Positions 21,591 through 32,504 of a stretch of 32,504 nucleotides of DNA are shown in pieces; position 1 is the stretch's first letter, and each line of letters begins with the position of its first letter. This stretch comes from an uncultured Clostridia bacterium. GTDB taxonomy: Bacteria > Bacillota > Clostridia > Christensenellales > CAG-1252. The stretch lies in contig CAMOTC010000009.1 in NCBI GenBank assembly GCA_946625545.1, forward strand, positions 1 through 32,504, in the 5' to 3' direction. The notes under the pieces are model-generated. The model searched no databases, was not told the origin of the DNA, and saw only the letters and a program-made list of their open reading frames with translations. The translations under genes and the position numbers were made by a program.

Positions 21591-22298
21591 ATGGAAGACG
21601 TAAAGACCTTGATAGAGACCTTTAGAGAATATCGCGATCTCTTGACCCCGATCACGGAGAATCTCCGTGACTTTGCGGATACCTACGATGGGATGAAAGG
21701 GGATATCGCGAGGCTGTCCGCCGCCTTTGAAGGGGACGTGACGGGCAATCTCGACCGCATCTATAAGACCCTATCCGCCGAGGCGGCGAAGGCGCAGAGC
21801 CTATCGCACGAGATCGACGCTTTCCTGTCAAGGAGCGAGAAGTACGAAGCGCAGCTCTCCAAGCTCACTGCGACTCTCGGCAAGCTGGACGGCACCTTGG
21901 ACTCCCTCTCCAAGCTCGAGAGCGAGGCGGAGACCCAGATCGGCAAGCTCGAAGCCACCCTCGAGGAGCGCAGGAAAAACTACAATCTGAAGGAGCTCGA
22001 GCGCACCGTCGCGAACTATCAGGCGGGCGTCACCAAGGTCAGCGAGTATATCAATCGTGACGTGGTCTCCGCTCTGCAGGATAATAACGATAAACTGAAT
22101 TCCATTCGTGACGGAATGGAGGAGATCCGCGTGGGCATTCGCGAGGGAAATCGCGATATGGAGACCCTTGTCGAATCCTTCGCTGCCACTTCGGAACTTT
22201 TACGCAAGGTCACCGAGGGCGAGCAGGTCAACGAAGCCTATATCTACGATATTCTCGATCGTTGGGCGGCGGAAAGAGGAGTCAAAAGGACGAAATAA
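21591..22298 (+). CDS. coiled-coil protein of unknown function, 235 aa
   Basis: Long heptad-like region, no TM segment, 17 nt after the helicase gene with RBS aaaggagcag. Confidence 0.8.
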   Translation: MEDVKTLIETFREYRDLLTPITENLRDFADTYDGMKGDIARLSAAFEGDVTGNLDRIYKTLSAEAAKAQSLSHEIDAFLSRSEKYEAQLSKLTATLGKLDGTLDSLSKLESEAETQIGKLEATLEERRKNYNLKELERTVANYQAGVTKVSEYINRDVVSALQDNNDKLNSIRDGMEEIRVGIREGNRDMETLVESFAATSELLRKVTEGEQVNEAYIYDILDRWAAERGVKRTK

Positions 22299-24607
22299 TG
22301 CTGAAAGAGACGCGTGAAAAACTGATCGAATGTATCCGCAAGGATGACAAGGCGGCATTCGGGGTTTTTATGACCCCCGAGATCCTCTCCGCCGTCTTCG
22401 GTCGTTTTCCCCTCCTCTCTCTCCTCTATCTCTACGACGCGAAGAGGATCGTCAAGCGCTATCTTTCCGAGCTTGTCAAGGAGAGACCGCGCAATAAGGA
22501 AGCCTCCTTCGCAGAGGCGGACGCTCTCTTTGCTTCGCGTGCGGGGAAGTGTTTGCGCTATTATATCTTCGCCGACGTCCCGCCTCTCGAGATGCTCGCG
22601 GTGCTCGGCAAGAGCAGGGAGCTCGAAAAGCTGTATGCGGTAGATCCCTCCGCCTCTCGCTCTCTCCCGATGCTCCATAAGATCTACTATACCCGCCTCG
22701 GCGCGGGCATCATCGTGAAGGGGGAGAAGCTCATCCTTCCGCGCGAGCCCCTCTCCTTTGGAGAAAAGAGGACTTTCACTCGATTTGCCCTGATCTTTCT
22801 CAGTGTATTTATCCTGATCGCCGCACTCACGAGCGTGACTTTCTTCTATTACGGCGTCGGGAGCGGCGGCAACTACTATCGCGTGAGAAGCGCGGAGGAA
22901 GTGGCGCTTTCTTTAGAGAAAGACCAAGATTTTAAGTTGGAGAAGGACGTCACCCTCTCCGCCGTCGTGGAAAATTATACCTCCAAGATGGATGGCGGCG
23001 GCCATTTCGTATATTTGAGCGCTCCCTTTGCACAAAAGCTGACGGGAGAGATCACCGACGTGATCTTTGTCATCGAGAAAGGGTTTGTCGGCGACGCGAT
23101 CATTCTCGAGAACGCAGGTGCCTTAAAGAACGTGCGCGTCATCGCAGAGGAGGTCACTTTCGCTAAAAGCGGCGAAGTCATGGGACTCCTGACTGCTGTA
23201 AACACGGGGGTCATTGAGAAGTGCACCGCCGTCCTCGACGTGACCATCGAGGGGGATGGCGGCGGAGACTGCTATTTCGCACCCTTTGCGGGAGAGAATA
23301 ACGGCACCATTCACAGCTGTGACATGGACGGCTCCGTCAAGGCGCGCAACGTGGACGTCGCGGGCGTCGTGGGCAAGAACGGCGAGAAGGGCGTCGTGAC
23401 CGACTGCGTCGTCAAAGGGGAGCTCGTCGAGCGCGCGGATATCAAAAATTGGACGCCGAACGTCGCGGGGATCGCGACGCAGAATGACGGCACGATCTAC
23501 GGCTGTACCGTGACAGGCAGTACGACCTCCATTCTCAGCGCTCCCGCTCTTGAGGAGACCGAGTCCCCTGCGAGCGCCTATGCCGCAGGGATCGCCTGCG
23601 TGAACGGCGGCAGTATCACCTCTTCGGAAAATCGCGGCACCGTCCTCGCGGAGAGCACGAACGGCTATGCCGATGCGGGCGGGATCGTGACCTTAAATGC
23701 CCACTATCTCTCTGATGGGACCATCCTCGCGGGAAAGGTGGACTCCTGCACGAGCTCGGGGGAGGTAAAGGCTCTCTCCTACAGTTATAACCCCTATGCG
23801 GGCGGGATCGCGGCGCAAAATCTGCAGGGCGGAGAGATCCGCGGGAGCACCGTCAGCGCACCTGTTCTCGCCACGCTCACTTTGGGAAAGATGACAGCGG
23901 GGCAGACGGGACTTTCCGCCGGTGCGGGCGGGATCGTCGCCTTGAATGTCGCGCTCGTCGAAGATTGCCGCGTGAATGCGCCCGTTCGCTCGATCGCCGA
24001 CTACGGACACGCGTCGGCAGGGGGCATCGTGTCGCTGAATTCCTACACGGGCAGTTATTACGGCAGGATCAGCGCTTCGCGCTCCTCGGGAGGAGTGTAC
24101 GGCGCGTCGGGGCAATATAACGTCTACGTCGGCGGGATCGCCGCGGAGAATTATCAGGCTTCTATCTCCACCTGCGGTCAGACGGGAGAGGTCTCGGGCG
24201 AGACCTCGGGCGAGCAGGCGTACTCCTTTATCGGCGGTATCGTCGGGTACAATTCGGGTGCGGTGGAAAAAAGCTTCTTTATCGGGACGATCTCGGACTA
24301 TGACGAGTCCAACTTTGTCGGCGGGATCTGCGGTCTGATCCGTCCCTCTTTCGCGATCAACCCTTTCACCGGGCGTTACCAAATGCAGATCGCCATGGCG
24401 GACAATTATTTCTCGGCGGGCGCTCATGCGAGCGGCTCTCTCTATCTCGATATGGCGTATCTCGATCTCCGTGCGAGAACGATCTACTCTCTCGCTTTCT
24501 TGGAGACGCACGAAGGATACGATCGCTACGTGACCGAATTGCTCGATTTCGGCGGGACGGCGGCAAGCGTAGATGCGATCAAGGCATCGGAGGTGTACTA
24601 TGAGTAA
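22298..24607 (+). CDS. single-pass membrane protein with GLUG-like repeat ectodomain
   Basis: N-terminal ~165-aa domain, TM helix FTRFALIFLSVFILIAALTSVTFFYY, then repeated AGGI(V/A)xxNxGxIxxCxxxG units. Start ATG 22298 overlaps the previous stop (TAATG). Confidence 0.8.
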   Translation: MLKETREKLIECIRKDDKAAFGVFMTPEILSAVFGRFPLLSLLYLYDAKRIVKRYLSELVKERPRNKEASFAEADALFASRAGKCLRYYIFADVPPLEMLAVLGKSRELEKLYAVDPSASRSLPMLHKIYYTRLGAGIIVKGEKLILPREPLSFGEKRTFTRFALIFLSVFILIAALTSVTFFYYGVGSGGNYYRVRSAEEVALSLEKDQDFKLEKDVTLSAVVENYTSKMDGGGHFVYLSAPFAQKLTGEITDVIFVIEKGFVGDAIILENAGALKNVRVIAEEVTFAKSGEVMGLLTAVNTGVIEKCTAVLDVTIEGDGGGDCYFAPFAGENNGTIHSCDMDGSVKARNVDVAGVVGKNGEKGVVTDCVVKGELVERADIKNWTPNVAGIATQNDGTIYGCTVTGSTTSILSAPALEETESPASAYAAGIACVNGGSITSSENRGTVLAESTNGYADAGGIVTLNAHYLSDGTILAGKVDSCTSSGEVKALSYSYNPYAGGIAAQNLQGGEIRGSTVSAPVLATLTLGKMTAGQTGLSAGAGGIVALNVALVEDCRVNAPVRSIADYGHASAGGIVSLNSYTGSYYGRISASRSSGGVYGASGQYNVYVGGIAAENYQASISTCGQTGEVSGETSGEQAYSFIGGIVGYNSGAVEKSFFIGTISDYDESNFVGGICGLIRPSFAINPFTGRYQMQIAMADNYFSAGAHASGSLYLDMAYLDLRARTIYSLAFLETHEGYDRYVTELLDFGGTAASVDAIKASEVYYE

Positions 24608-24869: not shown

Positions 24870-27005
24870 ATGACGAAGGTAACGCTGGATGAGAACGAAT
24901 TGATCGAGAAGATCAAGAGAGCTTATTCCGAAACGCAGAGCGATATGGTCCTGCGCGCCTTTTCTCTCGCAAAGAGGGCGCACGAAGGGCAAAAGCGTAT
25001 GTCGGGCGAGCCCTATATCATCCACCCCTGTCACGTCGCGAATATCCTCCTCGACCTCGGTATGGACGCCGAGACCGTCTCGGCAGGTTTCCTGCACGAC
25101 GTGCTCGAGGATACCGACGTCCCGCGTGAGACCCTCGTAGAGGAGTTCGGCGAGGAGGTCACCTCTCTCGTGGACGGCGTCACGAAGCTCACCAAATTGC
25201 AGTTCAAGAGCAAGGCGCAGGCGGAGGCGGAGAACCTCCGTAAGATGCTGCTCGCGATGGCGAAGGATCTCAGGGTCATCATCATCAAGTTTGCGGATCG
25301 CTTGCATAATATGCGTTCTCTCGACTATATGTCGGAGGAGTCGCAGATCGCCACGGCGCGTGAAACGATGGAGATATACGCGCCTCTCGCCGCCCGTCTC
25401 GGTATGTCGAGGATCAAGGGTGAGCTCGAGGATATCTCGATGCGCTACTTGTACCCCAAGGAGTACTACGAACTCGTGGATCTCGTCGCTTCCAAAAAAG
25501 AGGAGAGGGACGAATTCGTGAAGAAGGTCACCGAGCAGCTCCGCGCGGAGCTCGATAAACTCGGGATCAAGTGCGAGATCAACGGCAGGGCGAAGCATTT
25601 TTACAGCATTTACAGAAAGATGAAGAGGCAGAACTGCCCCATCGATCAGATCTTTGACCTCGTCGCGGTGCGCGTGATCGTGGATACGGTCAGGGACTGC
25701 TACGAGGTGCTCGGCACCGTGCACGGTATGTGGAAGTCGTTAAACCGCGTCAAGGACTATATCGCGACGCCGAAGCCGAATAACTATCGTTCGCTCCACA
25801 CCACGGTAACCAATGAATTCGGGAGACCCTTCGAGGTGCAGATCCGCACCAAGGAAATGCACCGTTTGGCTGAGTACGGTATCGCGGCGCATTGGAAGTA
25901 TAAGGACGGCAAGACCGATCGCGCTCTGGACGAAAAGATGCGCTGGATCCGCGAGGTCATGGCGATCCACGAGAGCGACGTCGAGGATAGCGAGGAATAT
26001 CTCAATATGCTGAAGAGCGAGATGTTCAATGACGAGGTCTTTGTCTTTACCCCGCAGGGAGACGTAAAGGCGCTCCCCGTCGGCTCCTGTATCGTGGACT
26101 TTGCCTATGCGATCCACAGCGACGTGGGTAATAAGTGCGTGGGCGGCAAGGTCAATATGAAGATCGTGCCTCTCTCCACCAAACTCCAGACGGGGGACAT
26201 CGTGGAGATCAATACTTCGCCGAATGCTCACCCCAGCCGCGATTGGTTCCGATTTGTCGCATCTCCCTCGACCAAGGCGAAGATCCGCCAGTATTTCAAG
26301 CGTACGATGCACGACGAGAACGTCCGCATCGGCAGGGATATGCTGATCGCCGCTTGCAAAAAGTCGGGCTACAGCGCAAAGGAATTAATGGTGGACGACT
26401 GGATCTGCGAGACGGTAGAGAAGCAGAGTTTCAATTCGACGGACGACGTCCTCGCGGCGATTGGGTACGGCGAGCTCAAACCGAAGCCCGTCATCGATAA
26501 ACTCGTCCAGCGCTATCGCGAGACGGTGCCCAAGGAGGAGATCAAGGAGCGTCCCGTCAAGAAGGTGACGGGAAATAGCGGCATCTTGATCGACGGCGAG
26601 GATGGGATGCAGATCCATCTGTGCAAGTGTTGCAATCCTCTCCCGGGAGACGAGATCGTGGGTTACGTCACGCGCGGCAGGGGGATCAACGTGCATCGCG
26701 CCGACTGTGAGAACGTCAAGACGATGGAGAAGGAGCGTCTCATCGCCGCAGAGTGGAGCGGGGTCGCCGCAGGCAAGTTCTCCGCCACCCTCTATATCTA
26801 CGCGACGAGCACCGCCGCGATCAATCAGGCGACCGAGGTCTTCAGCGGGATGAAGATCGAGTTGACGCATATCAACGCCTCGGTGGATAAGGATAAGAAC
26901 GTAAAGATCGAGGTCACGATCGAGCTCGCGAATAGGGAAGAGCTCTTTGCGGTCAAGAATAAATTATTACAAATCAAGACGGTCACAGACGTCGTGAGAG
27001 GATAA
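24870..27005 (+). CDS. relA: bifunctional RelA/SpoT (p)ppGpp synthetase/hydrolase
   Basis: 711 aa; HD domain GEPYIIHPCHVANILLDLGMDAETVSAGFLHDVLEDT, synthetase RVKDYIATPKPNNYRSLHTTV, TGS and C-terminal ACT-like regions. Confidence 0.97.
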   Translation: MTKVTLDENELIEKIKRAYSETQSDMVLRAFSLAKRAHEGQKRMSGEPYIIHPCHVANILLDLGMDAETVSAGFLHDVLEDTDVPRETLVEEFGEEVTSLVDGVTKLTKLQFKSKAQAEAENLRKMLLAMAKDLRVIIIKFADRLHNMRSLDYMSEESQIATARETMEIYAPLAARLGMSRIKGELEDISMRYLYPKEYYELVDLVASKKEERDEFVKKVTEQLRAELDKLGIKCEINGRAKHFYSIYRKMKRQNCPIDQIFDLVAVRVIVDTVRDCYEVLGTVHGMWKSLNRVKDYIATPKPNNYRSLHTTVTNEFGRPFEVQIRTKEMHRLAEYGIAAHWKYKDGKTDRALDEKMRWIREVMAIHESDVEDSEEYLNMLKSEMFNDEVFVFTPQGDVKALPVGSCIVDFAYAIHSDVGNKCVGGKVNMKIVPLSTKLQTGDIVEINTSPNAHPSRDWFRFVASPSTKAKIRQYFKRTMHDENVRIGRDMLIAACKKSGYSAKELMVDDWICETVEKQSFNSTDDVLAAIGYGELKPKPVIDKLVQRYRETVPKEEIKERPVKKVTGNSGILIDGEDGMQIHLCKCCNPLPGDEIVGYVTRGRGINVHRADCENVKTMEKERLIAAEWSGVAAGKFSATLYIYATSTAAINQATEVFSGMKIELTHINASVDKDKNVKIEVTIELANREELFAVKNKLLQIKTVTDVVRG

Positions 27006-31438: not shown

Positions 31439-31879
31439 ATGATCGTGAAAGTGAAGAAATTGGATAGACGCGCCACCCTCCCCACCTACGGCTCCCCGCA
31501 GGCGGCGGGAGCGGATCTCTATGCTCTGATCGAGGGGGAGTCCCTCGCGATCAAGGCAGGGGAGACCGTCCTCGTAGGTACGGGACTCTCCGTCGAGATC
31601 CCCGAAGGGTACGTCGGCTTGATCTATGCGCGTAGCGGACTCGCCACCAAGAAGGGTCTCGCCCCCGCAAATAAGGTCGGGGTCATCGACGCCGACTATC
31701 GCGGCGAGATCAAGGTCGCTCTGTATAATCAGTCGGGCAAGGAGCAGACCATTCTCGCAGGCGAGCGCATCGCACAGTTCGTGATCGCCCCCTATTTGAC
31801 CGCGCAGTTCGAGGAGTCGGACACCCTTTCGGACACCGCCCGCGGCGCGGGAGGCTTTGGCTCGACGGGTAATAAGTAA
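31439..31879 (+). CDS. dut: dUTP diphosphatase
   Basis: AAGADLYA, ARSGLATKKGL, VGVIDADYRGEIKVALYN, GERIAQFVI, GAGGFGSTG: five dUTPase motifs. Confidence 0.96.
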   Translation: MIVKVKKLDRRATLPTYGSPQAAGADLYALIEGESLAIKAGETVLVGTGLSVEIPEGYVGLIYARSGLATKKGLAPANKVGVIDADYRGEIKVALYNQSGKEQTILAGERIAQFVIAPYLTAQFEESDTLSDTARGAGGFGSTGNK

Positions 31880-31902
31880 AACAATCCCTAAAGTCTGATC
31901 GA

Positions 31903-31925
31903 GGCGGCAGAAATGCCGCCTTTTT
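31903..31925 (+). terminator. intrinsic terminator after dut
   Basis: GGCGGCA-GAAA-TGCCGCC-TTTTT. Confidence 0.9.
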
Positions 31926-32063
31926 AATAAGGAATTATGAATTGGGAGTTAGGAATATCGGATCGCATGGCTCCGTTTTTTTTGCGGAATGTGTGCGACC
32001 GAGTGCTATGAAGGATCAGCTATCGGGGGTTTTATTCTCTACAAATAGTAGATACAAAAGAAG

Positions 32064-32504
32064 AAACTCTATCACACGCGGATAGATAACAATCGCTGAG
32101 GGTGGAGACCGGGGGAGAGACGATTGCTCCGTAGATGCTTGCTTGCTGAGCCGTAGAGTGGTATGAGAACAAACGCTCACAAGAGAGAATAAATAAACTC
32201 TATCACACGCGGATAGATAACAATCGCAGAGGGGGGGAACGAGCGCCAGGCAGAAACATCGCTTGCTGACCCGTAGAGTGGTATGAGAACAAACGCTTAC
32301 AAGAGAGAATAAAAAACTCTATCACACGCGGATAGAGAAAAATCGCTGAGGGCGGAGAGTGGGGGAGAGACGATTGCTCCGTAGATGCTTGCTTGCTGAC
32401 CCGTAGAGTGGTATGAGAACAAACGCTTACAAAAGAGAATAAAAAAACTCTATCACACGCGGATAGAGAAAAATCGCTGAGGGCGGAGAGTGGGGGAGAG
32501 ACGA
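32064..32504. repeat. tandem array of long non-coding repeats, units of 131, 119, 131 and >=60 bp (truncated by window end)
   Basis: Units start at 32064, 32195, 32314 and 32445 with AAACTCTATCACACGCGGATAGA; shared block CCGTAGAGTGGTATGAGAACAAACGC(T/C)(T/C)ACAA(G/A)AGAGAATAAA; no ORF in the ORF track. Confidence 0.95.

Follow-up and report, generated by a model that had tools for sequence, protein, structure and literature searches.

Tandem half-copies at a contig end and a dispersed hairpin element lying at stop codons in Christensenellales

The array at the contig end and its composition

The window analyzed here is the whole of contig C9 of genome G000 (G000:C9, 32,504 bp), a fragmented MAG of 119 contigs that is 81% complete. 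Its right end carries, on the plus strand, an array (32064..32504) in which three whole units and half of a fourth, interrupted by the contig end, follow one another in tandem. The units start at 32064, 32195, 32314 and 32445 with periods of 131, 119 and 131 bp, and a mini-hairpin with arms CTCTATC and GATAGA (CTCTATC-ACACGCG-GATAGA), located in unit 1 at 32067..32086 (+), begins again at 32198, 32317 and 32448 in units 2, 3 and 4, in agreement with the starts and periods given in a preliminary description of this sequence. TRF detected the array with 98% matches, and CCGTAGAGTGGTATGAGAACAAACGC was found three times as compared to zero expected in shuffles. Units 3 and 4, whose first 60 nt were earlier described as identical, show no difference up to the contig end, and their near-identity points to a recent tandem duplication. 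A 99-aa ORF on the minus strand (window 32203-32502) crosses the array and is open at the contig end. This frame stays open by chance; the periods are all 2 mod 3, which argues against coding and is consistent with the non-coding character initially attributed to the repeats.

Upstream of the array lies a dUTPase gene (31439..31879, +) recognized by a profile match to PF00692 and followed by its own intrinsic terminator, GGCGGCAGAAATGCCGCC-TTTTT (31901..31927, +), which was read from the sequence and also detected as a palindrome; the array is therefore located beyond the terminator of the dUTPase transcript. Elsewhere in the window, a RelA/SpoT gene (24870-27005) is closely preceded, at 22262-24607, by a gene for a 781-aa protein that weakly matches the GLUG motif.

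Each unit is composed of the mini-hairpin and of two 36-nt left halves, termed A and B, of a dispersed element whose full-length copies are located outside the array. Half A derives from the full element carried by another contig of the same genome, C95, and half B from the one that occupies the orthologous site in genome G003, beside a DUF4364 gene. Compared with the left half of the C95 element, half A of unit 1 (32096..32131, +) is identical at 32 of 36 positions and that of unit 3 (32346..32381, +) at 35 of 36, the latter scoring 67 against a shuffled-control maximum of 25, and the half A of unit 4, truncated by the contig end (32477..32504, +), matches at 28/28. In unit 2, half A (32228..32246, +) is degenerate and shortened, which accounts for the 119-bp period; it was assigned by its position within the unit, and its score of 18 does not alone exceed the shuffled maximum. 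Compared to the G003 element, half B matches at 31/36 positions in unit 1 (32145..32180, +), at 31/36 in unit 2 (32265..32300, +) and at 34/40 in unit 3 (32395..32434, +; score 50, shuffled-control maximum 22). Right halves are absent from all units, and a covariance model of the element found no full-length copy anywhere in the window. The initial view of the repeats as structured holds in that they belong to a family with strong strand-specific covariation, but the units are left-half fragments and not complete RNA genes.

The first 53 nt of contig C95 (G000:C95) match unit 3 at 98%, so that the array resumes at base 1 of this contig and continues there. C95 encodes a DUF4364 protein, ribosomal protein S20, a germination protease, an Asp/Glu racemase (weak match) and an FAD-dependent protein. 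In G003, the mini-hairpin, half A and half B with its complete element are contiguous beside the same DUF4364 gene. Given the unbroken block in G003 and the continuation of the array on C95, the two contigs very probably flank one array, a join supported by orthology and by overlapping sequence rather than by reads. The dUTPase and DUF4364 genes are convergent partners. The suggestion that the array might be the RNA component of a system encoded to its right finds no counterpart in these C95 genes, nor at the orthologous site, which harbors one unit or none in other species. An element occupies the DUF4364 site in G000, G003 and G007, and the site is vacant in several species (G002, G004, G005, G008 and others). 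Halves A and B are probably what is left of elements that formerly occupied the stop codon at this site and lost their gene-proximal halves when newer copies took it over.

A dispersed, strand-biased hairpin element

A search of the genus with the array as query returned scattered short matches that terminate in a longer palindrome. The pattern GCGTACN5GTACGT occurs 3-72 times per genome, as compared to 0-1 times for a reversed control pattern. By aligning 46 copies, we found that the intact element is a rod-like hairpin of ~125 nt with 34 consensus pairs, 26 of which display compensatory change. In the covariation test 94.3% of cells were paired, none of 500 shuffles matched the observed covariation, and sliding the partners by 1-3 columns lowered pairing to 22-50%. 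From its base, the rod consists of a highly variable helix P1 of ~9-10 bp, a 3x3 internal loop (GAG/AUA) between P1 and P2, another small G/A-rich internal loop beyond P2 followed by a short helix, an asymmetric region in which GAGCGCUC or GAGGCUCG lies opposite UAGCGAAG or AAACAAAG, and a variable stem with the cap GCGUAC-NNNNN-GUACGU at the element tip. In other genera the tip stem covaries (GCGUAG/CUACGU, GCAUAC/GUAUGU, GUGUAC/GUACAU) and the closing G-U is retained. We rejected a routine copying of P1 from the target gene, as P1 extends 0-4 bp past the model in nearly all of 88 copies. In L028 and L066, where the element adjoins the stop codon of a GpmI-like gene, the left arm carries an inverted copy of the last codons of the gene (CACAGCCTGATAGAG) and P1 is longer by 11-12 bp; this is the sole such orthologous locus among the 88 copies, and the interiors of the two elements differ.

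One strand folds better than the other in 94 of 95 copies, with a mean advantage of 14.9 kcal/mol, and a separate strand test favored the same strand in 56/57 copies. Single mismatches in the stems were G-T or T-G in 52 cases vs A-C or C-A in 11. Taken together, the strand bias and the G-T excess argue that selection acts on one single strand, whether RNA or ssDNA.

With the covariance model, the element was detected in 13/13 genomes of the genus (3-85 copies each, 40 in G000), in 87/297 Christensenellales genomes representing 34 of 125 genera, and in 12 of the 392 genomes of an evenly drawn class-wide sample, where matches were mostly low-scoring. The hosts are uncultured gut bacteria, mainly from the rumen. 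Neither the array nor the element matched any of the 4227 families of Rfam 15, even at relaxed thresholds, and we found no account of such repeats in Christensenellales in the literature. The array query had no match in phage and plasmid records, the motif GCGTACN5GTACGTAACTG had none in IMG/VR viral contigs, and a phage or plasmid origin was dropped. A dUTPase scan of viral contigs retrieved generic dUTPases only and did not enter this conclusion.

Placement at stop codons and turnover of copies

In 66/87 copies, an ORF of 100 aa or more that is read from the opposite strand has its stop codon at the right edge of the element (edge between -20 and +15 nt relative to the stop codon). The same holds for the left edge in 3/87 copies, and the rate at random positions of these loci is 5.6%. 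Distances between edge and stop codon display modes at -14, -4, -1 and 0; at -14, the stop codon is supplied by the element itself (conserved CTATA). Independent gene calling agreed with this placement. The abutting genes are ordinary in appearance, the neighbors are housekeeping genes in mixed orientation that do not form cassette arrays, and about half of the left neighbors point away from the element. Identity with an intrinsic terminator was rejected, most copies having neither an A-run past the distal arm (present in 16/87) nor a U-run at the right edge (4/87). In genus G017, the element is found behind the terminator of the gene instead of at its stop codon. At many loci of G017 (L195-L210), a second repeat of ~83 nt (GGGCGGAAAAAGTGTATGAAAAAATTACGGACGGC..GCCGTCCGTAATTTTT..GGTTTCCGCC) lies to the right of the elements, between the hairpin element and the gene, and looks like a bidirectional terminator within a dispersed element.

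For the 13 genes bearing elements in two or more species, the similarity between copies at a given gene does not exceed that of unrelated pairs (67% vs 65%). Near-identical interiors were found at different loci, and in genus g74 they occur at many loci with three exchangeable outer arms, each accompanied by its matching partner arm. Part of this mobility signal could be mimicked by gene conversion that swaps interiors among resident copies. Piles of left halves and tandem copies are common beside elements elsewhere, and the spacers between outward-facing elements contain little coding sequence and many left-half fragments. Inverted element pairs flanking spacers of 0.1-1 kb were seen between convergent genes at L057, L061, L102, L104, L125, L132 and L163-L175. 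A small hairpin, GGGGTCCCC..TTCTTGGGG, and its variants (L007, L009, L067, L104) recur in several genomes of the genus, nested within the big element in L009 and L067. In g74 (L118-L132, L163-L175) a conserved TATTACCCACTTCGT motif was found on the left side of many copies; it was not seen in the genus of the window.

Direct repeats in the flanks were not in excess over the control (3.81 vs 3.75), giving no sign of a target-site duplication, and no general flank motif surrounds the copies. Y1 transposase and reverse transcriptase families were not found in the G000 assembly (81% complete). The Y1 (RAYT) family PF01797 was detected in 4 of the 13 genus genomes, these not including G000, G003 or G007; the assemblies are incomplete, and G003 and G007 are rich in copies. 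RVT_1 was present in one of the 13, which is not G000. In the sample of Y1 and RT genes that was searched, the element model had no match beside any of them, and neither enzyme could be clearly linked to the element as its mobilizer.

Interpretation and relation to known systems

We propose, with a probability of roughly 0.6, that the array arose by local amplification of left-half remnants, derived from a non-autonomous mobile hairpin element of ~125 nt that is dispersed across Christensenellales. The family, its structure, its strand preference and its location at stop codons are established by the data. In the proposed mechanism, a trans-acting factor would recognize the single-stranded hairpin, as RNA or ssDNA, via its invariant tip and would then install it beside a stop codon. 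Each new installation would oust the gene-proximal half of the previous occupant, so that left halves would accumulate on the far side; here, the block formed by A and B with the mini-hairpin would then have been duplicated in tandem. More tentatively, and with less than even confidence, the element might represent a new class of bacterial mobile elements, in which an ssRNA or ssDNA rod docks at stop codons by means of a putative enzyme and replaces the occupants, in which case gene 3' ends would contain a layered record of successive insertions. The array is of interest as a pointer to an undescribed, order-wide structured element: a strongly covarying hairpin present in about a third of the sampled Christensenellales genomes, docked at stop codons with near-nucleotide precision and absent from Rfam. 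It offers a testable case of a hairpin element choosing gene ends without target duplication, and it raises the question of whether its placement affects translation termination in gut bacteria.

An unlikely alternative is that the full-length element is a resident REP-like regulator of gene 3' ends, whose hairpin, formed in the mRNA just past the stop codon, would slow ribosomes or protect the mRNA 3' end, the copies being kept by selection and the array being debris. The position of the element edge at the stop codon and the presence of elements at the same genes in several species agree with such a role, and in E. coli, REPs located no more than 15 nt from a stop codon are reported to cause ribosome stalling and reduced translation (PMC12306157). 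The present elements would act in the same way if the weaker hairpin of the sense strand forms. However, good folding is a property of the gene-antisense strand, with a mean deficit of ~15 kcal/mol for the sense strand. Sequence is not conserved among copies at the same gene, and empty sites exist at the DUF4364 site, the one compared across the genus. As the weaker sense-strand hairpin is not what selection most clearly preserves, we favor a mobile element with a strand-specific intermediate, which may secondarily have a REP-like effect.

It appears still less probable that the element is a small RNA expressed from the folding strand, the tandem units being RNA genes or sponges. The strong strand-specific covariation and the conserved G-U and G-A features are typical of RNA, but the left flank contains no conserved promoter-like sequence, the right-edge U-run is restricted to the 4 copies in 87 mentioned above, and no read-through is to be expected from the half of the left neighbors that point away. 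The array units moreover do not possess the 3' half required for folding. The tandem small-RNA genes envisaged in the preliminary description are therefore not borne out by units made of left halves, in a window where the model finds no full-length copy; viewed as such an array, the units are ordinary debris.

In integrons, attC sites lie directly behind stop codons, and it is their gene-antisense strand that folds. The element mirrors them in both placement and strand bias, yet a new attC-like recombination site is a very improbable explanation: RYYYAAC/GTTRRRY boxes were found in 0/95 copies, the integron integrase TIGR02249 exceeded the cut-off in none of the 297 genomes, and the neighbors are housekeeping genes in mixed orientation instead of cassette arrays. 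Finally, a plain local satellite or an assembly artefact unrelated to the dispersed family could be invoked since the contig breaks within the array, as repeats often cause, but can hardly be reconciled with the 89-97% match of half A of units 1 and 3 to the full element, or with the same block occurring as a single unit at the same site of an independently assembled relative.

Our best reading is that the element is new and, while resembling REPs or attC sites in behavior, belongs to neither. Like the REP/BIME sequences associated with RAYT (Y1), it is a non-coding hairpin dispersed at gene 3' ends in dozens of copies or more per genome, often as inverted pairs between convergent genes. It differs from them by its ~125 nt and several helices, REPs being short (~20-40 nt) hairpins with a GTAG/GGAG head, by the variable start of its P1, by its registration to the stop codon on one edge only, and by the lack of a detected Y1/RAYT gene in the 81% complete assembly of G000. 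With integron attC sites such as VCR, it shares imperfect palindromes of ~125 nt behind stop codons that fold on the gene-antisense strand, and it is distinguished by the absence of R'/R'' boxes, integron integrase and cassette arrays. The PATE and MITE derivatives of IS200/IS605 are likewise small, non-coding, hairpin-based and probably moved in trans; the present element is in contrast a single rod hairpin without a fixed flanking target motif, with no model match near the Y1 genes sampled, and it shows no target-site duplication above control, in contrast to what is expected of IS-derived MITEs. A SINE-like bacterial retroelement fits poorly with RVT_1, which occurs in one of the 13 genus genomes and was not found in G000. 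CRISPR arrays, whose repeats were already noted in the preliminary description to be much shorter, differ as well, the 119-131-nt units being conserved whole and spacers absent. With the structured RNAs of Rfam 15, the element has in common covarying helices and non-canonical internal loops, and it is set apart from them by being multi-copy, probably mobile and without a visible promoter.
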